From IMG/VR virus record IMGVR_UViG_3300007541_000036, positions 1 through 45,111 of that record: DNA of 45,111 nt; one strand, given 5' to 3'. Position 1 is the stretch's first letter. Each line of letters begins with the position of its first letter. Source of the stretch: a virus. Below, piece by piece: positions 28,830 through 42,687 of the stretch. The notes under the pieces are model-generated. The model saw only the letters and a list, made by a program, of their open reading frames with translations. It made no database searches and was not told the origin of the DNA. A program made the translations under genes and the position numbers.

Positions 28830-30896
28830 ATGGCAACAGAAACAATCTTATCTCCCGGAGTTCTTTTACAAGAAACCGATAAATCCTTTATCACACCTGG
28901 GGTTGATCCATCAGGAATGGCAATCATTGGCCCTACTGCAAGAGGACCAGTTAATATCCCCTTACAAATCAACAATTACAGTGATTTTAAAGAAATTTTC
29001 GGTACTACATTCCAAAATGACACGCAAAGAGAAGAATATTTTACACACCTTGCAGTAAAAAATTACTTTGCAAACGGGGGAGCAAGCGCTCTTGTAACTA
29101 GAGTAGTATCTGGTTCATTTACTTCAGCCGCTAATACTCACATCACATCTTCAAAAGGTGGGCAACCTGGCAGATTAACCTCAACACAAACTACAGCTTC
29201 TGATTCATCAGGAACTTGGAATTCTCTTGCTGATGGTACACCATCTTCCATAAACACTTATTCCGACATAGCTTTAAGTGGTGGTAGTGGCACAGGAGGA
29301 AAAGTTAGTGTTACAATATCAGCTTCATTATTAACTAATTTAACTTTAAGTTTAGGTGCAAATTATGAATTAAATGACGTATTAGAATTTGCTGGAACTA
29401 GTGTTGATGGTGGTGGTACTCACACTTTAGAACCATTAACTGTCAATAACCTTATTAATAACCAACCATTTACTTTAGTAACTATTGGTCAAGGTACCGT
29501 ATTTAACCAAAGCGTTGGTATTGCTACTACTGCATCTGAATACGCTAACGGTGCTTTTGAGACAGGTTCTAAAGATAACATTAAGTGGGAAATTAAAGAT
29601 ATAAATAATGCCCAAGGTACATTTACTCTTATTATTAGAAGAGGCGATGATACACCTGCAGCTCCTATTGTTCTTGAAACATTTACTGAATGTTCGCTCG
29701 ACCCACTATCAGAAAATTACATCGCTAAAAGAGTAGGCGACCAAACACAAGCAGCAGAGTTAGACAGCGAAACTGGAGATTATTTAGTTACTACCACAGG
29801 TGAATTCCCCAACAAATCTAAATACGTTCGTGTATCTAACGTTCAGTATCCCACATACAAGTATATCACAAACGAAGGAGTTGTTGGGGTTGATAGTGAC
29901 AGCGTATCTTACTCAGGTTCATTACCCCTACCACGATCTGGTGGTTTTTATGGAGCTATAGGAGACTTATTAAGCACTACAGCTGCCGATAATAGATTCG
30001 GATCAGCTTCAGGAACAAGCGTTGATAATATTCAAGGTTTAAGTACCTCTTCTTACGACATAGCAATTTCACTTCTTAAAAACAAAGACGAATACAAATT
30101 CAAAACACTTGTTATCCCTGGACTTAACCAAGATACCCACGCAACCACAATCAACACTGTAATTGAAAACACTACAGCACGTGGTGATAGCTTCTTTGTT
30201 ACAGACATGGAAGTTTGGGGTGAATCAGTGGCAAACGTAGTTGACGAAGCTGGAGATATCGATTCTTCATTCGCTGCTACTTACTGGCCTTGGGTTCAAG
30301 TTAGAAGTACCGAATTAGCTAGAAATATTTGGTGCCCCGCTTCAACTATTATTCCTGGTGTTTATTCTAAAAATGACAGCATAGGAGCGCCTTGGTTTGC
30401 ACCTGCTGGTGAAATTAGAGGTAAATTAGGTAGATTAGTAACTGGAGTAGAAAAGAAATTAAGCAAAGGAAGCCGCGATACATTATACGGTAATAAAGTT
30501 AACCCAATCGCAACTTTCCCCAATAGTGGTGCTATAATATTCGGTCAGAAAACATTACAAAACGCTAAGAGCGCTCTTGATAGAGTAAACGTTCGCAGAA
30601 TGTTACTTGATGTTAAAGATACAATCGGTACATTTGCTGATAATATTGTATTTGAACAAAACACAGCTGCAACTCGCGATCGTTTTATAAGACAAGCTAC
30701 TCCATATCTTGAAAGCTTAGTACAAAGACAGGGTCTTTATGCATTCCAGGTTAAAATGGACGGTCAAAATAACACACCTGATGTTATTGACGAAAATAAA
30801 CTCGTTGGTCAAGTATTTTTACAACCAACTAAAACAGCAGAATTCATTGTAATTGACTTCACTCTAACAAGAACTGGAGCTTCATTTACAGATTAA
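28830..30896 (+). CDS. gp18: Tail sheath protein, copy 1, with inserted domain
   Basis: The product is 688 residues (T4 gp18 is 659). The N-terminus (LSPGVLLQETDKSFITPGVD, then GPTARGPVNIP) and the C-terminal core (YWPWVQVRSTELARNIWCP, then ALDRVNVRRMLLDVKDTI and VGQVFLQPTKTAEFIVIDF) are diagnostic of contractile tail sheath proteins. Compared with copy 2 it carries about 110 extra residues, near 98-211. These contain ALSGGSGTGGKVSVTI and LGANYELNDVLEF, a pattern like the GSGYTVGDVL-type beta domains seen in phage surface proteins. The insert probably protrudes from the sheath. The gene has an A-rich leader and no Shine-Dalgarno sequence. Confidence 0.92.
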   Translation: MATETILSPGVLLQETDKSFITPGVDPSGMAIIGPTARGPVNIPLQINNYSDFKEIFGTTFQNDTQREEYFTHLAVKNYFANGGASALVTRVVSGSFTSAANTHITSSKGGQPGRLTSTQTTASDSSGTWNSLADGTPSSINTYSDIALSGGSGTGGKVSVTISASLLTNLTLSLGANYELNDVLEFAGTSVDGGGTHTLEPLTVNNLINNQPFTLVTIGQGTVFNQSVGIATTASEYANGAFETGSKDNIKWEIKDINNAQGTFTLIIRRGDDTPAAPIVLETFTECSLDPLSENYIAKRVGDQTQAAELDSETGDYLVTTTGEFPNKSKYVRVSNVQYPTYKYITNEGVVGVDSDSVSYSGSLPLPRSGGFYGAIGDLLSTTAADNRFGSASGTSVDNIQGLSTSSYDIAISLLKNKDEYKFKTLVIPGLNQDTHATTINTVIENTTARGDSFFVTDMEVWGESVANVVDEAGDIDSSFAATYWPWVQVRSTELARNIWCPASTIIPGVYSKNDSIGAPWFAPAGEIRGKLGRLVTGVEKKLSKGSRDTLYGNKVNPIATFPNSGAIIFGQKTLQNAKSALDRVNVRRMLLDVKDTIGTFADNIVFEQNTAATRDRFIRQATPYLESLVQRQGLYAFQVKMDGQNNTPDVIDENKLVGQVFLQPTKTAEFIVIDFTLTRTGASFTD

Positions 30897-30923: not shown

Positions 30924-32660
30924 ATGGCAACAGAAACAATTTTATCACCTGGTGTATTACTCCAAGAAATAGATAAATCATTTATCACTCCTGGAGTTGA
31001 CCCTTCTGGGTTAGCAATTATTGGACCTACAGCTAAAGGTCCGGTTGAAATCCCTACTTATATTAGAGATTACAACACTTTTAAAGAAGTATATGGAACT
31101 ACATTAGAATCAGCATCTAATGCTTATGAATATTATACTAGTTTAGCTGTAAAGAATTACTTCCAAAATGGTGGTTCTAACTGTCTAGTAACTAGAGTAG
31201 TTAGGGATGCTAGCAGCTGGACTCCCGCCTCAAGCAGCAGAATAGCTCCTAGAGATGCTGCAGATACTGCTGGTGATGGACCATTTACTTTAGAAACCTT
31301 AAGTAAAGGTACTTTAATGAATAGCTCAGGATCTGAATATTCTAACGGTGCTTTAGAAAATGGATCTAAAGATAACATAAGATGGGAAGTTAAAGATATA
31401 AACACAGCACAAGGTACATTTACTCTTATTATTAGAAGAGGTGACGACACTACTGCTAAACCAATAGTTGTTGAAACATTTACCGAATGTTCACTTGATC
31501 CACTTTCTGAAAACTATATTTCTCGTAGAGTAGGCGATCAATACTATAGCAAAGATGAAACTGATCCTGACAATATACTAGTTACTATTAATGGTGAATT
31601 TCCTAACAAATCCAGATACGTTAGAGTTTCTGCTGTAAGTTCTTCACTATACCAATATATTGATAATGGTGGTTCAGTCCAAGCTGGATATGCTGACAAG
31701 TTACCTAACAGCGGAAGTGGTATATTTGATGGTGGTACTGGTGGCAATTTAGATGGTGCCCCATTATTTGGTGAAAATGGTGTTGCAGACAACGCTATTC
31801 AAGGCCTCCAAGAAGACGATTACGATGACGCTATCAACATCCTAAAAAACAAGGATGAATACAGATTCAAAACCCTAGTTGCTCCTGGTTTAACACAGGA
31901 ATTAGCAAGCGATAAAGTATCAACTATAATTGAAAACACTACTGCACGTGGCGATAGCTTCTACGTAGTTGACTTGGTAGATTATGGTAAAACTACCGCA
32001 AATGTAACCACAGAAGCAGGTGAATTAGATACTTCATTCGCAGCTTCTTACTGGCCTTGGGTACTTGTTAGAAGCACTGAATTAGGTAGAAACGTATGGT
32101 GCCCAGCTTCAACAGTAATTCCAGGTGTATACTCTAAAAACGACAGCATTGCAGCTCCTTGGTTCGCACCTGCTGGTTTGACTAGAGGTGGTATTACCAA
32201 CGTTACTAGAGTAGAAAAGAAACTCAGCAAAGCAGTTAGAGATACTTTATACTCAAACAAAGTTAACCCACTTGCTACTTTCCCAGGACAAGGTATCGTA
32301 GTATTCGGCCAGAAAACACTACAAAACGCTAAGAGTGCTCTTGACAGAGTAAACGTTCGCAGAATGTTACTTGACGTTAAAGACACTATCAACGGATTCG
32401 CTAGAAGTATCTTGTTTGAACAGAATACCGAAGCAACTCGCGAACGCTTTGTAAGATTAGCTACTCCATACCTTGAAAGCTTGGTACAGAGACAAGGCCT
32501 CTACGCTTTCCAAGTCAAGATGGATGGCCAAAATAACACACCGGATGTTATTGACGAAAACAAATTGGTAGGACAGGTGTTCTTACAACCAACAAAGACC
32601 GCAGAATTCATCGTTCTCGACTTTACTTTAACACCAACCGGAGCCTCCTTCACAGATTAA
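30924..32660 (+). CDS. gp18: Tail sheath protein, copy 2 (without the insert)
   Basis: The product is 578 residues, a tandem paralogue of the preceding sheath gene. The ends are almost the same: the first 25 residues differ at one position, and the segment LYAFQVKMDGQNNTPDVIDE and its continuation are identical. The encoding DNA nevertheless differs at many third positions, so the duplication is old and the protein is held by purifying selection. It lacks the 110-residue insert of copy 1. The two may be mixed along one tail, occupy different zones, or be alternatives. The leader is AAATAAAATAAA. Confidence 0.92.
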   Translation: MATETILSPGVLLQEIDKSFITPGVDPSGLAIIGPTAKGPVEIPTYIRDYNTFKEVYGTTLESASNAYEYYTSLAVKNYFQNGGSNCLVTRVVRDASSWTPASSSRIAPRDAADTAGDGPFTLETLSKGTLMNSSGSEYSNGALENGSKDNIRWEVKDINTAQGTFTLIIRRGDDTTAKPIVVETFTECSLDPLSENYISRRVGDQYYSKDETDPDNILVTINGEFPNKSRYVRVSAVSSSLYQYIDNGGSVQAGYADKLPNSGSGIFDGGTGGNLDGAPLFGENGVADNAIQGLQEDDYDDAINILKNKDEYRFKTLVAPGLTQELASDKVSTIIENTTARGDSFYVVDLVDYGKTTANVTTEAGELDTSFAASYWPWVLVRSTELGRNVWCPASTVIPGVYSKNDSIAAPWFAPAGLTRGGITNVTRVEKKLSKAVRDTLYSNKVNPLATFPGQGIVVFGQKTLQNAKSALDRVNVRRMLLDVKDTINGFARSILFEQNTEATRERFVRLATPYLESLVQRQGLYAFQVKMDGQNNTPDVIDENKLVGQVFLQPTKTAEFIVLDFTLTPTGASFTD

Positions 32661-32700: not shown

Positions 32701-33204
32701 ATGGCAATTTTAGATAATTCAGAGTTAGGCACAATCGGTATGTTCTACAAGACATACGAGCCAAAAACTAAAAACAGATTCTACTTCGATATCGAAGGTG
32801 TACCTGCTTTCTTAGTTAAAAAAGCAGACAGACCAAAACCTTCATTTGAAGAAGTAGTACTTGACCACATTAACGTACAAAGAAAACTCAAAGGTAGAGT
32901 TTCTTGGGGTGACATTACGTGCGAATTGTACGATCCAATCAACCCATCAGGTGCACAAGCCGTAATGAACTGGTTTAGACTCCACCACGAATCAATAACT
33001 GGTAGAGACGGTTACCAAGATTTCTACAAGAAAGACGTTAAATTCCGTTCTTTAGGTCCTGTAGGTGATGTTGTTGAAGAGTGGGAATTGAAAGGAGCAT
33101 TTATTAAGAGTGCTGACTTCCAAGACGCCGATTGGTCAAACGCAAATACTGCACAGACAATTAGCTTAACTCTTGCAATGGATTACTGCGTATTAAGATA
33201 CTAA
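32701..33204 (+). CDS. gp19: Tail tube protein (gp19-like)
   Basis: The product is 167 residues (T4 gp19 is 163). It is the hexameric building block of the inner tail tube. The pattern is that of gp19-type tubes: an N-terminal arm (GTIGMFYKTYEPKTKNRFYF), the strand-loop FLVKKADRPKP, KGRVSWGDITCELYDP, a GAQAVMNWFRLHHE helix and the terminal strand (TISLTLAMDYCVLRY). It follows the sheath genes, as in T4. A perfect rho-independent terminator follows 21 bases after the stop, so the sheath-tube unit ends here. Confidence 0.92.
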   Translation: MAILDNSELGTIGMFYKTYEPKTKNRFYFDIEGVPAFLVKKADRPKPSFEEVVLDHINVQRKLKGRVSWGDITCELYDPINPSGAQAVMNWFRLHHESITGRDGYQDFYKKDVKFRSLGPVGDVVEEWELKGAFIKSADFQDADWSNANTAQTISLTLAMDYCVLRY

Positions 33205-33292: not shown

Positions 33293-34054
33293 ATGGCAGA
33301 AAAAAAGTTACAAACTGAAATGGTTGGCCTACCTTCAAAAGGCCTTTTATACCCAGAGGGTTCTCCACTTCGCAACGGCTCAATAGAAGTAAAGTATATG
33401 ACGGCCAAAGAAGAAGATATCCTAACAAACCAATCCTACATTAAATCGGGTGTAGTAATTGATAAATTATTGCAATCGCTAGTGGTGTCTCCTATCGATT
33501 TTAACGACATTTTAATTGGAGATAAAAACGCTGTTTTGGTTGCAGCGCGGGTCTATGGTTATGGTCCTCATTATGTGTTTAACTACACTAATCCTAGCAC
33601 TAATGAAGACGAAGAAGTTATGATCGATTTAGCTCAAGTGCAAGATAAAGAGATAGATGAATCACTTATCAAAACACCTGGTGTAAACGAATTTGATTTT
33701 GAATTACCCGCTTCAAAAAGAAAAGTTACATTTAAACTTCTCACCCAAAGAGACGAAAACAACATTCAGCTTGATCTTAAGAATCAAAGAAAAATGAAAA
33801 GAGAAGCAGAATTAACCACACGTCTCAAACACACCATCGTAGCAATTGATGGAGACAAAGATAAAGCTGCCATTAAAGAATTTGTAGATTCAGAATTGCT
33901 TGCAGTAGATTCAAGAGCGTTAAGAAACTACATTAAGGATGTGTCACCTGACGTAGATCTTACGTTTAACTTCGAAGGAGAGGACGGTACCGTTGTTAAT
34001 AACGTCCAAATTCCCATCGGAGTAACGTTCTTTTGGCCTGACCTCCAGGTATAA
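33293..34054 (+). CDS. Tail assembly chaperone / gp26-like protein
   Basis: The product is 253 residues. It contains LPSKGLLYPEGSPLRNGSIE, then YMTAKEEDILTNQSYIKSG, DKLLQSLV, ARVYGYGPHYVFNY and FKLLTQRDENNIQ, and ends GVTFFWPDLQV. This pattern resembles the gp26-like / tail chaperone family of T4-type phages. A place between the tail tube and the tape measure is the classical position of the tail assembly chaperone in tailed phages. Such chaperones coat the tape measure during tail building and are often made in two forms by ribosomal frameshifting. Here a second frame (34026-34304) continues from the end of this gene. Confidence 0.65.
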   Translation: MAEKKLQTEMVGLPSKGLLYPEGSPLRNGSIEVKYMTAKEEDILTNQSYIKSGVVIDKLLQSLVVSPIDFNDILIGDKNAVLVAARVYGYGPHYVFNYTNPSTNEDEEVMIDLAQVQDKEIDESLIKTPGVNEFDFELPASKRKVTFKLLTQRDENNIQLDLKNQRKMKREAELTTRLKHTIVAIDGDKDKAAIKEFVDSELLAVDSRALRNYIKDVSPDVDLTFNFEGEDGTVVNNVQIPIGVTFFWPDLQV

Positions 34055-34304
34055 ACCAGTAATATACGATGAGGTATTCGACCTCACATACTGGGGACAG
34101 GGAGGATTCAGTTTCGAACAAGCGTGGAATTTACCAGTTTATATGAGGCGCTATTATATAAATAAAATAAGCGACATTCATAAAAAACAGGAAGAAGCAT
34201 CTAAAGGACATAATGAAGACGAACAAGCGATGAAAACTCTTGAAAATTTCAATATAGACTGGGATAACATTCCTCGAGATTCAGGGCTTAAAAATGAACT
34301 GTAA
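34026..34304 (+). CDS. Frameshift extension of the tail chaperone (+1 frame)
   Basis: The +1 frame is open from 34026 (after a TAA at 34023-34025) to the TAA at 34302, giving 92 codons. The product includes VIYDEVFDLTYWGQGGFSFE, then AWNLPVYMRRYYINKI and a charged helical tail ending DSGLKNEL. No ATG, GTG or TTG occurs before the conserved-looking WGQGGFSFEQAW block; the first ATG (34143) would remove it. Overlap with the end of the chaperone and the slippery TTC-TTT-TGG at 34028-34036 suggest expression as a chaperone fusion by frameshifting. An assembly indel in the TTTT run is the main alternative. Confidence 0.65.
   Translation, partial: RSFGLTSRYKPVIYDEVFDLTYWGQGGFSFEQAWNLPVYMRRYYINKISDIHKKQEEASKGHNEDEQAMKTLENFNIDWDNIPRDSGLKNEL
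34028..34036 (+). other. Candidate +1 frameshift site TTC-TTT-TGG
   Basis: The allowed shift window is 34026-34054, bounded by the +1-frame stop on the left and the zero-frame stop on the right. Within it, a Phe tRNA on TTT (34031-34033) can move one base to TTT (34032-34034) with perfect pairing, after which GGC is read. No other codon in the window re-pairs as well. Confidence 0.5.
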
Positions 34305-34359: not shown

Positions 34360-37300
34360 ATGGCTGAAGAACAAGATTTAGATAAACTGATAGAAAAGAG
34401 AAAACAACTCGCCGAACTTTTACAGCGTGAAGGAAATCTTAGTGCTCAAAGGGCTAAAGCTATTTCTGAACAATACAATACTTTAGAAGAAATAGCAAAT
34501 ATTACTCAAACCGTTACCCAAAATGGTGAGAGTTTTGTTAAAGAATTAAATAAAGCCGTAGATGCAGGAACAGGTTTATACGATGTTTCGGTAGGTTTAG
34601 TAGAAAGTCTTAAAGAAAGTTTAGGTATTCAAACAAGACGCAATGAATTTGATAGAGATCTTTTTAAAATTAATAAAGATATAACAAATACTTTAAGAGA
34701 TCAAAAAGAAAATTTAACCAGTGAAAGCGATGTATCTAAACAAATAGCCAAAAACGACGAAAAACGTTTAGCAGCATTAAAAATATCTAAATCCCTAACT
34801 GAGGGAATGAGCGAAGAGTCTTTAAAGCAAGTACAAAAAGCTCAAGACGTTTATTTAGCTAGACAAGATATAGAAAAATTAATTAAAGCAGAATTAGCAG
34901 CTGTAGCAGCAGGTGCTCCTTACGACGCAGCAAAATTAGAAAGATTACAAGCTTCAGCTAGGTCTTTAGATAACTCTCTTGAAACCCAATTAGAGACACT
35001 AAATCCTATGCAACAACAATTGTTGTTTACTAATATGAATGTTGCTGGTTTAGAAGAAGCTAATGCAAAACAAAAAGAACAATTAGCTAGAATACAAGAA
35101 ATCAATAAAGCTACTGGCTTAACAGGTGCCATTATTGGGGGACTTAGCAAACTTCCCGGTATAGGACAAATATTTAAAGCCCAAGATTTAGAAGATATTA
35201 AAAAAGAACTCCTAGAATCTGGACAAGAAGCCGATAAATTTCAAATAGCAGGCAAATTAGTTTCTAAAACATTTGATAACCTCAAAAATACGCTCAGCGA
35301 CCCTGTATTTTTATTTACAGCACTTACAGGAGCTTTGGTTAGAAATTCAAAACTAGTTAACGAATTTCAAACAGAACTAGGTGTAGGTTACAACAATGCG
35401 CTTGCTATGCGCACAGAAATAGCAAATGCTGCGGACGCAAGTGGTGATTTGTTTATTAACAGTGAACGATTACAAAAATCCGTATTTGCTTTAGCACAAA
35501 ATACAGGTGTATTTTTTGATCTTAGCTCTAAATCAGCCGAAACATTTACCAACTTAACAGAACGAATGGGGTTAGCTGCAAATGAAGCAGGTAACCTTAC
35601 AATGTTGTTAAGACTTCAAGGTAAAGATACAGAAACTACTATGTCTAACTTAGTAGGAACTGCAAATGCCGCCTTAGCTACAAGTAAAACCACAGCAAAC
35701 GTTAAAGATATATTAGGTGATGTCGCTAAATCATCAAAAGGATTACAGGCATCATTCGCTGCTAATCCAGGTGCACTTGCTAAAGCTGCAGTTGCCGCTA
35801 GAGAATTAGGTGCTACCTTAAAAGATATAGAAGCTACTCAAAAAAGTCTATTAAGTTTTGAATCAAGCATAGAAGCAGAATTAAAAGCAGAATTGCTAAC
35901 AGGAAAACAACTTAATCTTGAAAAAGCAAGAGCAGCGGCACTTAATAACGATATGAAAACCTTGGGTGAAGAACTCAAGAAACAAAATGTTGATTTAGCT
36001 TCGTTTGGAAAAATGAATGTTCTTCAACAAGAAGCTATGGCTGAAGCAATGGGTATGAGTCGCGATGCTATGGCAGAAATGTTACTAAAACAACAAACCC
36101 AAGGCATGGCTGCTGAAGAAGTTAGAGCCAAATTTGGTGAACAAGCATACGAGCAATTTAAAGCTATGGATGCTAGCCAAAAAATGAATGAAGCTATGGC
36201 AAAATTAAAAGACATATTTGCCAATCTCTTAACAGTAGTTACTCCTATTATTGATGCCCTTGCATTTGTACTTCAACCTATTGCTATGATAGGGCAGGGA
36301 ATAGCCAAGCTTAACGAATGGACAAAAGGCTGGGCTAGTAAAATATTAGGTGTAGTTGTTGCAGTTAAAATGCTTAGTGGGGGATTTGGGGGGCTACTTG
36401 ATAAAATTAAAGGAATTTCATTTGGTGGGTTAAGAGAAAGAATAGTAAGTGCTTTTGATTCTAAAACTTATACTGGTTTCTTTAGTGGTATACAAGAAAG
36501 ATTTAAAGGATTATCTGAACCATTAAAAGGACTTAGAGATAAACTAATGGATACTTTTGGGGGAGCCGCTGATAAAGCCAAAGGGATTCAATTTGACGAA
36601 AGAATAGGTAAAAAAGGTGGATTCCGTGATATGGTTTCAGGACGCTTTGTAAGCGAAGAAGCCGCCAATAAAGCTGGAGTATTTAAACCAGGTACAGGTC
36701 CAACAGCTGCTGCCGCAGCTGGTGCTACTGACGCTGCTGGTTCTGCAGGTGCCGCAGCTACTGCTGCCCCTAAAGGAGCTGCTGCTGGTGCTGCTGGTGC
36801 TACTGACGCTGCTGGTTCTGCAGGTGCTACCCCTGCGCCCGCAGATAATGGTAAAACTTTAAAAGAAAAAATGCAAAATATTGCCGAAGGTATTAAAGCC
36901 TTTGCTGATAAAGATGTAATTAAAGGTGCTTTATCTATGATAGTTGCTGCACCTGGTTTAGTAGCGCTTGGTTTAGCGTCGTTACCTTTAAAAATCACTG
37001 AAAAAATTAACGGTAAAGCTATCCAAACAGGTATGGAAGGTATAGCTAATGGAATTAAAGCATTTGAAGGTACTACTAAAGGGGCATTAGCATTATTAGT
37101 CGCTACCCCTGGATTATTAGCACTTGGTTTAGCTGCTCCTGGATTAGCATTAATAGGAGTTGTAGGAACTGGTATAGCCGCTGGTTTAAAAGGTATATCT
37201 GTTGGTATGAATGCTCTAGGTAAAAACATGGTTGGTATTATAAAAGGTTCTATAGCATTAACAACTTTAGCTTTACCAATAGCAGCCGCCGCAGCTGCAT

Positions 37301-38346
37301 TCCAATTATTAGAGGGAGTTGATCCTGGCGCTATGATAGCGTTTAGTGTTTCTTTAGGAATTTTAGGAACAGCAGCCGCTATTTTAGGAAGTATGTTACC
37401 TGTAGTTGCTATGGGTGCATTAGCATTAACAACCTTAGCTATTCCTATAGCAGCTACAGCAGCAGCCTTTAGTTTATTAAAGGGTATAGATACTTCTATG
37501 ATGTTAGGATTTGCTGCTGCTTTAGGTGTTTTAGGATTAGCAGCAGCTGGTTTTGGGATAGTAGCCCCATTAATAATAACAGGTTCAGTAGCTATTGGTG
37601 CTTTAGGATTAGCTTTATTACCTTTAGCAGTTGCAATGAATGTAGCTGCTCCTGCGGCTGAACAATTTGCACATGTATTATCTAGTTTAGGAGAAATAAA
37701 TGTAGCTAATTTATTTGGATTAGCAATGACATTACCTACATTAGCCTTTGGTATTGGTGCTTTAGCACTTTCGATTGGAACCGCAGTTCTTGCAGCTATT
37801 TCTTTAAAAGTTTTAACCAATGCTTTAGAACCATTAGCTGAAATGGCCCCTAAGTTTGACATAACTAATAAATCACTAGCAGGTATTGCTGGAAGTATAG
37901 CTTTAATAAGTACTTCTTTAGCAGGTTTAGATGTTTCTAAATTAGAACAAATAGCAGATTTAGGAGAAAACATAAACATAACATCCACAGCGGGTTTAGA
38001 TGTTTCTAAATTAGAACAAATAGCAGATTTAGGAGAAAACATAAACATAACATCTACTACGGTAACATCAGCCGCACCAACCCCTTCTCCCCAATCACCA
38101 GGAACAACTTCTCTTACTGAAGGAACTACTACAGCAGCAAACGCTGGTGGCATTACAGGAGAAGAAGTTAGAGCAATTGTTGAAGAAACAGTTACAGCAA
38201 CTATTAACGCTCTTGTCCCTGACATGGTAGCAGCATTGAAAGAAGGTCAAGGCAAGATACAAGTTACTAACGATAACTTTAATAACTCTAGACAAAGCGA
38301 AGGTCCATCTCGCAACCGAAATATAGTAAACAATAACTTTGCATAA
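34360..38346 (+). CDS. Tail tape measure protein
   Basis: The product is 1328 residues, much longer than T4 gp29 (590). The first 300 residues are helical and coiled-coil-like with high Gln/Glu/Lys. The middle (about 380-620) is helical and Ala-rich. A low-complexity linker of Ala/Gly/Thr/Ser lies near 777-830, and a long hydrophobic Ala/Leu/Gly segment covers about 870-1170, as expected for a protein delivered into the host membrane. A 23-residue tandem duplication lies near 1188-1233. Tape measures set tail length, so a long tail is predicted. The position after the tail chaperone and before the tube initiator fits. The gene has its own terminator-promoter boundary upstream. Confidence 0.85.
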   Translation: MAEEQDLDKLIEKRKQLAELLQREGNLSAQRAKAISEQYNTLEEIANITQTVTQNGESFVKELNKAVDAGTGLYDVSVGLVESLKESLGIQTRRNEFDRDLFKINKDITNTLRDQKENLTSESDVSKQIAKNDEKRLAALKISKSLTEGMSEESLKQVQKAQDVYLARQDIEKLIKAELAAVAAGAPYDAAKLERLQASARSLDNSLETQLETLNPMQQQLLFTNMNVAGLEEANAKQKEQLARIQEINKATGLTGAIIGGLSKLPGIGQIFKAQDLEDIKKELLESGQEADKFQIAGKLVSKTFDNLKNTLSDPVFLFTALTGALVRNSKLVNEFQTELGVGYNNALAMRTEIANAADASGDLFINSERLQKSVFALAQNTGVFFDLSSKSAETFTNLTERMGLAANEAGNLTMLLRLQGKDTETTMSNLVGTANAALATSKTTANVKDILGDVAKSSKGLQASFAANPGALAKAAVAARELGATLKDIEATQKSLLSFESSIEAELKAELLTGKQLNLEKARAAALNNDMKTLGEELKKQNVDLASFGKMNVLQQEAMAEAMGMSRDAMAEMLLKQQTQGMAAEEVRAKFGEQAYEQFKAMDASQKMNEAMAKLKDIFANLLTVVTPIIDALAFVLQPIAMIGQGIAKLNEWTKGWASKILGVVVAVKMLSGGFGGLLDKIKGISFGGLRERIVSAFDSKTYTGFFSGIQERFKGLSEPLKGLRDKLMDTFGGAADKAKGIQFDERIGKKGGFRDMVSGRFVSEEAANKAGVFKPGTGPTAAAAAGATDAAGSAGAAATAAPKGAAAGAAGATDAAGSAGATPAPADNGKTLKEKMQNIAEGIKAFADKDVIKGALSMIVAAPGLVALGLASLPLKITEKINGKAIQTGMEGIANGIKAFEGTTKGALALLVATPGLLALGLAAPGLALIGVVGTGIAAGLKGISVGMNALGKNMVGIIKGSIALTTLALPIAAAAAAFQLLEGVDPGAMIAFSVSLGILGTAAAILGSMLPVVAMGALALTTLAIPIAATAAAFSLLKGIDTSMMLGFAAALGVLGLAAAGFGIVAPLIITGSVAIGALGLALLPLAVAMNVAAPAAEQFAHVLSSLGEINVANLFGLAMTLPTLAFGIGALALSIGTAVLAAISLKVLTNALEPLAEMAPKFDITNKSLAGIAGSIALISTSLAGLDVSKLEQIADLGENINITSTAGLDVSKLEQIADLGENINITSTTVTSAAPTPSPQSPGTTSLTEGTTTAANAGGITGEEVRAIVEETVTATINALVPDMVAALKEGQGKIQVTNDNFNNSRQSEGPSRNRNIVNNNFA
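37921..38058 (+). repeat. 69-base tandem duplication in the tape measure gene
   Basis: Two adjacent 69-base copies (37921-37989 and 37990-38058) differ at three positions and encode the 23-residue unit AGLDVSKLEQIADLGENINI plus TST twice. The near-identity marks a recent event. Confidence 0.95.
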
Positions 38347-39152: not shown

Positions 39153-39457
39153 ATCGTTACAGCAATATACGACTTAAAAAAGACTCAGACGGTAAACGCT
39201 ATATAAGAAGCGTTATTTATCCTGAAATCCCTGAAACTTTAGACGATATTTACGTTGAAACAGAATACGGTGACCGTGTAGATATTTTAGCGTACCAATT
39301 CTATAACGATACATCTTTATGGTGGATTATTACAACTGCTAACCCGGGAAAACTAAGGCGCGATACTTATGTTTGTCCTGCGGGTTTACAAATTAGAATA
39401 CCTTTAGATCCTAACCCTATTATAGACGAATTTGAAAGAATAAATAGAGCTAGATGA
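39149..39457 (+). CDS. gp53: Baseplate wedge protein, gp53/LysM-like
   Basis: The product is 102 residues. The core (DIYVETEYGDRVDILAYQFY, then NDTSLWWIITTANPG and a final RIPLDPNP) is the LysM-like pattern of T4 gp53 and related small baseplate proteins. In these, a D-R-x-D-x-L-A-x-x-x-Y segment is followed by W-W-x-I. T4 gp53 is 196 residues, so this is a short form. It overlaps both neighbours by four bases (ATGA), giving translational coupling to the tube-junction and hub genes. Confidence 0.75.
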   Translation: MNRYSNIRLKKDSDGKRYIRSVIYPEIPETLDDIYVETEYGDRVDILAYQFYNDTSLWWIITTANPGKLRRDTYVCPAGLQIRIPLDPNPIIDEFERINRAR

Positions 39458-42400
39458 GTATTTTTAAACAGTCGTTTCCTAAATGGATCCAAAGTCAATT
39501 AAATAAAAGACAAGAACTTCAAGCTACTGGCCTCAATGGAGGAAAAAAAAGCAACGAAGCTCTTGTTTGGAACCAGTCTAAACAGTGTGTTATTAGAGCA
39601 ACCTCGTTAGTTGATTATACTAAGGAAGTAGACGGTGGTTTAGGTATAGGTGATTTTAATACAATAGGAGGAAATCAATTAGCAAAACGATTCATACTTC
39701 AAGGAGGTATACTAAACAAAGGACAAATTCGCAGAGCCCATTTTGGTCAAGAGAGTTCAGCATACGGAGACCCATTATTAGGATCCAACAGTGGTCCTGA
39801 GGGGTTCGGACAGGTACCAATGCCTGGTATTACTAGCTTAGACATTGCAACTAAAAGTGCGTATGGTTCTTTACGCCAAGCAAAATTAAGTTTTGTAGTT
39901 CACAATCTCAGACAACTAGAGATTATGGAATTGCTTTATATGCGACCAGGATACCCTGTGTTGGTAGAATGGCAATGGTCACCTTATGTACACAGTGTAG
40001 ACGGTGTAATACATAGAAGCCATAAAGTTAGTTCAGACACTGTATTCGCAGAAAAAGTTAACCAAGAACAACTATATTCTGAAATAATAAAACTAAAAAA
40101 AGAATCTGAAGGTAATTACGACGGATTTCTTGGATTCGTAACTAATTTTGGTTTCCAAGCGCGTCCTGATGGAGGATTCGATTGCTATTCAGAAATTGTG
40201 TCTATGGGTGAAGTTATTGACTCACTTAAAATAGGCAGTAGTTCACACATACTTTCAAAATTATTCCCGGGTAAAGAATTTACTTTTAAACTTCATAAAG
40301 AAGACGAAGACGAAGAAATCAAAAACCCAGATATACTAAGAGCTATACTCCTTGGTTTAGCTAAATTTACTGGCACTGTAGATACTGCTGGTGGTGAAAT
40401 ACCGTGGGCCCCTCAAATTTGGGAAAATTGGTTTAACAATGAATCTGGAGAATTAGCAGATGCCATAGTAAACATTATTATAGATAAATTTGAACCACTC
40501 CAAGCTTATACTAGCAGCGATGAAAAGATGCAAGCCTTAGAACAATATGTTCTAAAAACAAACCAAACTACAAGTTCTGGAGGCTTTAGAGTCCGATTAA
40601 ACACTGGATATGTTAGGTGGGATTTACTAGCATTCCTTTTTAACGAATTAGTATTCGCACGCCCTAGTGACGATACAGAACCACCTGTTAAAATAATACA
40701 GCACTTTTTAAGAAATAACCCCAACAACCAAGACAAACCAATACCCGAATTAATCAAATACGTAAAAATTACAGGGGGTAATAAAGATGATCTTATTGAT
40801 TTAAGTTGCGATCCTAAGGTTTGTATTTTACCTCACTCATTTTTTGATACTAGATTACAAGAAACTATAGATCCTGACCAAGGAAGATTAGGAAAAGTAA
40901 TAGAAGGTATTGGTGATGGTTTTGAGTGGCTCTTTGGTAGATTAAGTAATGCCGTTGTAGCATTAGTAGATAAAGACGTTGATTTTGCTGGATTTGGTTT
41001 TTCTGCAACAGAATTAAATCTTGAAGAAGAAGCTAAATACTACATTGGTGGTATTTATTTAAACACCAAAATGCTTTTAAAAGCATACGATTCAAGTATT
41101 AAAAACAAAGATCAATCAGAAGTAGATTTTGGTGATTTCTTTAAAGCTATATGGGACGACGTAAATGCTGCTTGTCCTTTACACAACTTTATTTTTAAAA
41201 TCGACAATGAATTCCCTAACACTGCGTATGTTATGGATTTACCTGTTGATAACAACCAATTAAAAGAAATTAAAGACAAATTATTTACTGTTGAAGTACA
41301 GTCGTCAAACAGCGCTGTAAGAGAATACGACATACAAGCAACTATCCCAGACGCATTAAAATCAACAGTGGCAGTACACGCTCAAAATCCAGATACAACA
41401 GAAGATTTAGACGATTTAACATTTCAAGCGTTTAATAGAAATATTAAAAACCGAATATTTTTCGCGCCTACCGTTAAAACCCAAGAACAAATAGATCGCG
41501 AACGTGCTCAAGCTGCACGTGAAAGGGAAGCGTATTCTAATTCTCCCGCCGCTAAAGAAGATAGAAGACTAGGAATATCATATGAAGAATCTAGAACCCC
41601 CGAAGGTAAAGCTAAAAAACGTTACTTACTTGCGGCTGAAAAATTCAACAAATTAACTCCACTTTATTTTGAAATTGTAAGTGCGGATGAAAATGATTCA
41701 ATAGAAGATTCAAACGATACTGTATCTGACCTTAAATCGTCTTTAAAAGAATTACAAACTGCTACCCTACAATTAGAACAGTTAAAAAATGCAAATTTAG
41801 GAGCGAGCGCAGTTATTCCCTTAGAATTCACAATGACACTTGACGGTATATCAAATATTCTTATTGGTTCCGTATTTAAAATTAGAGGCGATCGTTTGCC
41901 AAAAGCATATAGAGATAAAGTTGGATTTATTGTATTTAAAGAAGAACAAAGTATAACTTCGGGTCAAGATTGGGTTACCAAAATTGGAGGTAAAATGATT
42001 ATATTACCAACAGATAACCAAGGTAAAGACGTTGCGCCTGTAGTTACGCCTAAACCAGCTGAAAAACCTGCTCCGTTCCCTGAAATTCTCAGTGAACCTA
42101 CTTTAGTTGACAATACAGAAGTAGTTACGCCAGGTGATCCTACTCAAACCATAGTTCGAACATTTGAAATACCACCTACGCTTAATCCTTCTGAAAGATT
42201 ACCAGTCGATCAACTTACAACAAGCGAGACAGGAATAAACCTAATCAAACAGTTTGAAGGATTTAGAACAAACGCTTATGTTGATCCAGGTACTGGTGGA
42301 GAACCTATCACTATTGGGTATGGTACTACTAGGTATGCTGATGGAAGAAAAGTTAGAATGGGTGATACCATCACTGAATTCCAAGCTACTGAAGAATTAG

Positions 42401-42687
42401 CCCACCACGTAAAACAGGTAGCTGAAAAGGCCATCAGAAGATATATTGATGTTCCCTTAACCCAATTCGAATTTGATTCCCTATCAAGCTGGGTTTACAA
42501 TGTTGGTTCAGGTAACCTACAAAGTTCAACCCTAAGAAAAAAATTAAATGCACGAGATTATGAAGGTGCTGCAAATGAATTCCCAAGATGGACCAAGGCA
42601 GGTGGAAATGAATTAGCAGGTCTAGTAGCAAGAAGAACAGCAGAACGTAATTTATATTTAACAAATAACCCAGGAAACGTAACGTAA
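39454..42687 (+). CDS. Baseplate hub protein with C-terminal GH24 lysozyme
   Basis: The product is 1077 residues. The N-terminal 900 residues form the hub or spike part (FPKWIQSQLNKRQELQATG; SLRQAKLSFVVHNLRQLEI; ELLYMRPGYPVLVEWQW) and include helical linkers. The last 155 residues are a GH24 (T4-type) lysozyme: FEGFRTNAYVDPGTGG, then ITIGYGTT, an SSWVYNVGSGNLQSSTL helix and GLVARRTAERNLY. The probable catalytic residues are E935, D944 and T953; the spacing is standard from E to D, with three extra residues before T. This enzyme would cut peptidoglycan during injection, like T4 gp5, but with the lysozyme at the C-terminal end. It overlaps the gp53-like gene by four bases. Confidence 0.85.
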   Translation: MSIFKQSFPKWIQSQLNKRQELQATGLNGGKKSNEALVWNQSKQCVIRATSLVDYTKEVDGGLGIGDFNTIGGNQLAKRFILQGGILNKGQIRRAHFGQESSAYGDPLLGSNSGPEGFGQVPMPGITSLDIATKSAYGSLRQAKLSFVVHNLRQLEIMELLYMRPGYPVLVEWQWSPYVHSVDGVIHRSHKVSSDTVFAEKVNQEQLYSEIIKLKKESEGNYDGFLGFVTNFGFQARPDGGFDCYSEIVSMGEVIDSLKIGSSSHILSKLFPGKEFTFKLHKEDEDEEIKNPDILRAILLGLAKFTGTVDTAGGEIPWAPQIWENWFNNESGELADAIVNIIIDKFEPLQAYTSSDEKMQALEQYVLKTNQTTSSGGFRVRLNTGYVRWDLLAFLFNELVFARPSDDTEPPVKIIQHFLRNNPNNQDKPIPELIKYVKITGGNKDDLIDLSCDPKVCILPHSFFDTRLQETIDPDQGRLGKVIEGIGDGFEWLFGRLSNAVVALVDKDVDFAGFGFSATELNLEEEAKYYIGGIYLNTKMLLKAYDSSIKNKDQSEVDFGDFFKAIWDDVNAACPLHNFIFKIDNEFPNTAYVMDLPVDNNQLKEIKDKLFTVEVQSSNSAVREYDIQATIPDALKSTVAVHAQNPDTTEDLDDLTFQAFNRNIKNRIFFAPTVKTQEQIDRERAQAAREREAYSNSPAAKEDRRLGISYEESRTPEGKAKKRYLLAAEKFNKLTPLYFEIVSADENDSIEDSNDTVSDLKSSLKELQTATLQLEQLKNANLGASAVIPLEFTMTLDGISNILIGSVFKIRGDRLPKAYRDKVGFIVFKEEQSITSGQDWVTKIGGKMIILPTDNQGKDVAPVVTPKPAEKPAPFPEILSEPTLVDNTEVVTPGDPTQTIVRTFEIPPTLNPSERLPVDQLTTSETGINLIKQFEGFRTNAYVDPGTGGEPITIGYGTTRYADGRKVRMGDTITEFQATEELAHHVKQVAEKAIRRYIDVPLTQFEFDSLSSWVYNVGSGNLQSSTLRKKLNARDYEGAANEFPRWTKAGGNELAGLVARRTAERNLYLTNNPGNVT

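Follow-up and report, generated by a model that had tools for sequence, protein, structure and literature searches.

The window analysed here is a stretch of 45,111 nucleotides of viral DNA (IMG/VR record IMGVR_UViG_3300007541_000036, positions 1 to 45,111), in which a gene coding for a probable tail assembly chaperone is located between those for the tail tube and the tape measure protein. The following features are found at this locus:

32701 to 33204, plus strand: tail tube gene, gp19-like (phrog_4542 tail tube, 2e-27; 48% identity to the neighbour gene in Flavobacterium phage immuto)
33293 to 34054, plus strand: short form (TAC-N), a gp26-like tail assembly chaperone of 253 aa (phrog_150, Pfam T4_baseplate, AF2 model)
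34023 to 34025, plus strand: TAA in the +1 frame, directly 5' of the shift site (read from the sequence)
34026 to 34304, plus strand: TAC-C, the extension in the +1 frame, 92 codons (selection in its own frame, relatives)
34028 to 34036, plus strand: proposed +1 shift site TTC TTT TGG (conservation among relatives; UUU_Ynn site class, PMC5009743)
34360 to 38346, plus strand: tape measure protein of 1328 aa (matched by BLASTP at 2e-80 to an immuto gene with the annotation tail tape measure protein; no clear Pfam or PHROG match of its own)

The chaperone ORF ends in ...VTFFWPDLQV*, and its codons from 34022 to 34039 are GTA ACG TTC TTT TGG CCT, followed by GAC. The +1 frame opens at 34026, just past the TAA, and closes with a stop codon at 34302-34304. 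Re-reading of the sequence thereby reproduced the end of the chaperone gene at 34054, the 92 codons of the +1 frame and the lack of any ATG, GTG or TTG before its conserved core, all as given in the original prediction. The first ATG is that of ...PVYMRR, within the core, and the sole start codons 5' of it are of rare type (CTG, ATA). Because of the TAA at 34023-34025, any shift between the two frames is confined to the 29-base overlap from 34026 to 34054.

The short form matched phrog_150 (baseplate hub; 1e-10), as did all 21 relatives scanned, and the same profile matches T4 gp26, T4 gp51 and the window gene alike. With Pfam T4_baseplate (PF12322) the window protein scored 6.5e-5 and 23.1 bits, just below the cut-off of 24.5, and 14 of the 21 scanned relatives matched this family (best 2.9e-9). 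The short form was modelled with AF2 (pLDDT 88.7), and on comparison with the PDB the top row was YqbN (3KLU), which we take to be an XkdN-like tail chaperone, with a modest Z of 5.6 (rmsd 4.4, 99 aligned residues), followed by the HK97 tail assembly chaperone 2OB9 with a similarly modest Z of 4.6 (rmsd 4.9, 94 aligned); the next rows, at Z 2.9, were unrelated. A Foldseek search against the PDB returned no match below 0.001, HK97 chaperone chains being among the weak matches, and a search of solved structures by sequence found nothing. Folded alone, the extension was predicted to be helical (AF2, pLDDT 75.6); it reached 16 bits with DUF6760 (PF20546), below the cut-off of 27, and the extensions of 12 out of 39 relatives matched this domain weakly as well (best 1.5e-4). 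It is very likely that the window gene is a tail assembly chaperone of the TAC-N/TAC-NC type, known as gpG/gpGT in lambda, in a T4-related myovirus.

The frame relation was followed in 91 distinct relatives, which comprise IMG/VR sequences, immuto, Microcystis phage Mel-JY01, the SP-15 group and others. The original prediction expected the extension to be kept, and so it is: all 91 carry it in the +1 frame, with a length of 38-108 codons, and the frame not used for the extension is usually shut within about 15 codons. The same relation was found at 9 further loci in bacterial metagenome assemblies. Moreover, the motif ARC-T7-GGCCTGAC matched at least 120 stretches in IMG/VR, of which 80 were fetched; every one of these encodes a homolog of the window gene, and 79 carry a +1 extension of 63-106 codons, the remaining one being short, probably cut by the end of the contig. 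Shortened by one T, the motif would bring both frames into one; in this form it gave 8 matches in IMG/VR, none of them in a chaperone homolog, so that the single continuous gene named beforehand as a refutation was not encountered. The two-frame arrangement is real and far beyond chance. A single gene broken by a sequencing or assembly indel might come to mind since homopolymers are error-prone, but this frame relation is shared by 91 distinct sequences, isolate genomes included, and no in-frame relative was found. For the family, the indel is refuted by these relatives, and its probability is practically nil.

Substitutions within the window clade point to the same reading of the two frames. 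For the extension, dN/dS is 0.105 in its own +1 frame, close to the 0.109 of the upstream chaperone gene, and it rises to 1.7 on translation in frame 0; by this measure the extension is evolving as a protein in the +1 frame only. Codon usage in the overlap is restricted too: proline is encoded by CCT in 84 of 86 sequences versus 42% elsewhere, and aspartate by GAC in 73/73 versus 20% elsewhere. Such a fixation exceeds what the amino acids need and is as expected if both frames are translated; this dual constraint likewise speaks against an indel.

Two independent genes, with an extension that initiates by itself or by reinitiation, would leave a similar picture of two open frames. The annotation of Mel-JY01 does assign a TTG start to the extension, and truly split versions, in which an ATG overlaps the stop codon, exist in distant phages (L106 and Cygsa01). 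Nevertheless, the usual start codons are absent before the core in the window and in 29 of 86 distinct sequences, and the TTT_Y site is fixed together with the C-terminal codons of the short gene, which argues against separate genes. We thus regard this explanation as highly improbable, and relatives with an independent start, which would have spoken against the original prediction, were not found as a rule of the family.

In all 91 distinct relatives, the overlap contains an in-frame TTT with T or C as the next base, and UUU_Y is the common denominator of all variants. Of the slippery TTTT put forward at first, the relatives keep an in-frame TTT_Y, its fourth base being either T or C. The most frequent form among the relatives is TTT TTT TGG CCT GAC, and most have seven T in a row; the window clade has TTC TTT TGG, and other variants are TTT CTT TGG, TTT CTT TAC, TTT TTT TAT, GCT TTT TGG, TTT TTT CAC, TTC TTT CGT and TTT CTA. 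TGG is the codon after the last TTT_Y in 79/91 relatives. In bacteria, UUU_Ynn is reported to be especially prone to +1 shifting (PMC5009743).

The extension frame could equally be reached by a shift of -2, and at TTT TTT TGG sites such a slip in the P site would keep the Phe pairing. In the window clade, however, tRNA-Phe would land on TCT, and it would mispair at the TTT CTT TGG and TTT CTA sites too; only a +1 move on TTT_Y suits 91/91, which makes the -2 shift very unlikely. The seven consecutive T of most relatives could also favour slippage of the RNA polymerase, leading to transcripts of mixed length. Yet the frames are kept in the window clade (TTCTTTT) and in others (TTTCTTT) that have no long T run, and polymerase slippage is therefore not general and extremely improbable as the explanation. 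The +1 frameshift is thus left to account for the arrangement as the original prediction proposed, with site, extension and gene order (tail tube, chaperone, tape measure) all conserved and with neither an independent start nor an in-frame relative. We consider that the short form and the fusion very probably arise by programmed +1 frameshifting at UUU_Y, a well-supported reading in which direction and site of the shift are deduced wholly from comparative evidence.

The usual stimulators were looked for as well. No conserved downstream RNA structure was found by prediction, and a by-eye look among relatives for an internal Shine-Dalgarno-like stimulator revealed no constant G-rich stretch. The adjacent stop of the RF2/prfB type is absent, the A-site codon being TGG with the stop several codons downstream, and the canonical -1 layout X_XXY_YYZ does not apply to the window, where the extension sits in the +1 frame.

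According to the proposed mechanism, most ribosomes would terminate at 34054 and release the TAC-N of 253 aa, and a minority would move +1 at TTC_TTT_TGG. With the Trp codon waiting in the A site, the tRNA-Phe in the P site would slip from TTT at 34031-34033 to TTT at 34032-34034; in some relatives it would re-pair on UUC. Reading would then continue with GGC CTG... into the helical C-terminal domain, giving a TAC-NC fusion of 336 aa. We infer the occurrence of slippage, its efficiency and the exact slip codon; the short and long forms would presumably act in the loading of tape measure and tube.

Most known frameshifts in tail chaperone genes go in the -1 direction, and they fix the proportion of short to long product needed for tail assembly. 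Lambda gpG/gpGT resembles the window in its layout, with one gene ahead of that for the tape measure encoding a short and a long chaperone, whereas the shift of lambda is -1. A 2016 review cites the haloarchaeal myovirus HSTV-2 as a likely +1 case among G-T tail chaperone genes (PMC5009743); by this description it comes close to the window gene, although HSTV-2 is a virus of archaea. Listeria phage PSA, invoked as a precedent in the original prediction, does use +1 shifts in a phage structural operon, but these occur in cps and tsh (capsid and tail-shaft genes) rather than in a chaperone gene, at a CCC proline site, and are stimulated by a stop codon or a pseudoknot (PMC5009743).

Other groups of T4-like phages have a comparable two-part layout, in which gp26 is joined to a small extension, with a shift of opposite direction. 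In S-RIM8, phiM9 (Pootjesviridae), OLIVR6 and Aeromonas phage 65.2, a classical -1 heptamer (T TTT TTC or TTG) is found at the end of the gp26 gene, unlike the TTT_Y of the window. From this heptamer, or from a little 5' of it, the -1 frame is open and codes for a similar type of extension. The heptamer was present in every cyanophage-type IMG/VR locus that was read. Our loci with T_TTT_TTC/G at the gp26 end are L108 (2471-3369), L109, L110, L112 and L114-L193, from cyanophages and other T4-like groups. A +1 event in a T4-like phage, as first suggested, fits the family of the window, but other T4-like groups reach a homologous extension by -1 at T_TTT_TTC.

Homology of these extensions was assessed by profiles. 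Both the S-RIM8 extension and the C-terminus of T4 gp51 match phrog_634 (9e-30 and 1e-23, respectively). With hhalign, the extension of the +1 clade aligned with that of the -1 clade (E 6e-4), and the latter with the C-terminus of T4 gp51 (E 4e-5); the +1-clade profile gave no direct match to the single T4 sequences of gp26, gp51 and gp28. The link of the +1-clade extension to T4 gp51 is weak if taken directly, and runs through the cyanophage extensions and the PHROG and Pfam profiles.

T4 shares with the window a short part of the same family (phrog_150) but differs by having two full genes, divergently oriented, instead of one gene and a frameshift. The 2016 review names T4 as the exception to G-T frameshifting (PMC5009743). 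The original prediction remarked that T4 is not known for a +1 shift; a solution for T4 had already been published: according to the account given in PMC10885494, its short and long forms come from separate genes (Vladimirov, Gautam and Davidson, 2022, Virology 566:9-15, doi 10.1016/j.virol.2021.11.003). The same work is cited in PMC12846349 for poly-T -1 signals of T4-like phages. The short and long forms are thus encoded by separate genes in T4, whereas cyanophages and others have a -1 pair and the family of the window a +1 pair.

A limited literature search found no published description of +1 UUU_Y sites in T4-like chaperones. What seems to be new is the +1 direction with its deep conservation, the separate genes of T4 being already published. 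On balance, we favour the view that a +1 UUU_Y chaperone site, independent of a stop codon, is fixed in a very large clade of environmental phages which are related to T4 and probably often infect Bacteroidota, with -1 at T_TTT_TTC in related groups and a split into two genes in T4. If true, frameshifting would have changed its direction at one and the same position within a single gene family, and the site family would offer a test case for such a change. A conserved UUU_Y +1 site with neither adjacent stop nor visible RNA structure, present in at least 100 phage contigs, would also be an evolutionary test case for sites of this sort.

Annotations of isolate genomes overlook the extension or treat it as a fragment of its own (immuto, Mel-JY01, SP-15, RM378 and the cyanophage 'gp51'). 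A small hypothetical gene or gene fragment, listed apart from the chaperone gene, represents it in immuto (L002:3136-3246), Mel-JY01 (L001:3986-4222), RM378 (L102:3219-3395) and SP-15 (L103:3264-3383). Similarly, annotated 'gp51 baseplate hub assembly catalyst' genes of 46-60 aa resemble the 3' part of the -1 fusion, and in S-RIM8, phiM9, OLIVR6 and Aeromonas phage 65.2 the small -1-frame extension either figures as a tiny gp51 or is left unannotated. Two loci (L106:2501-3426 and L111:2072-2982) are apparently split: there the extension begins with an ATG that overlaps the stop codon of the short gene.

The DUF6760 lead was traced in 3 bacterial loci. One Bacteroidota-group genome (L205:871-1626) has T4_baseplate (PF12322) and DUF6760 in a single in-frame gene adjoining a gp19-like tube gene, which supports both parts working as one protein. 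On the view favoured above, the two-part module of gp26-like protein and DUF6760 would reach bacterial loci with gp19-like tube genes. At another bacterial locus with tube-like genes (L204:826-1194, minus strand, and the downstream ORF), DUF6760 is encoded in the -1 frame; the overlap is short and shows no clear slip site.

Elsewhere in the window, two adjacent tail-sheath-like ORFs (28830-30896 and 30924-32660) are almost the same at their N- and C-terminal ends but differ in the middle, and have apparently arisen by duplication. The tape measure protein (34360-38346) contains a duplicated stretch, AGLDVSKLEQIADLGENINITST, near its 3' end, and an ORF of 1077 aa at 39454-42687 ends in a segment that by eye is lysozyme-like (LIKQFEGFRTNAYVDPGTGGEPITIGYGTT).
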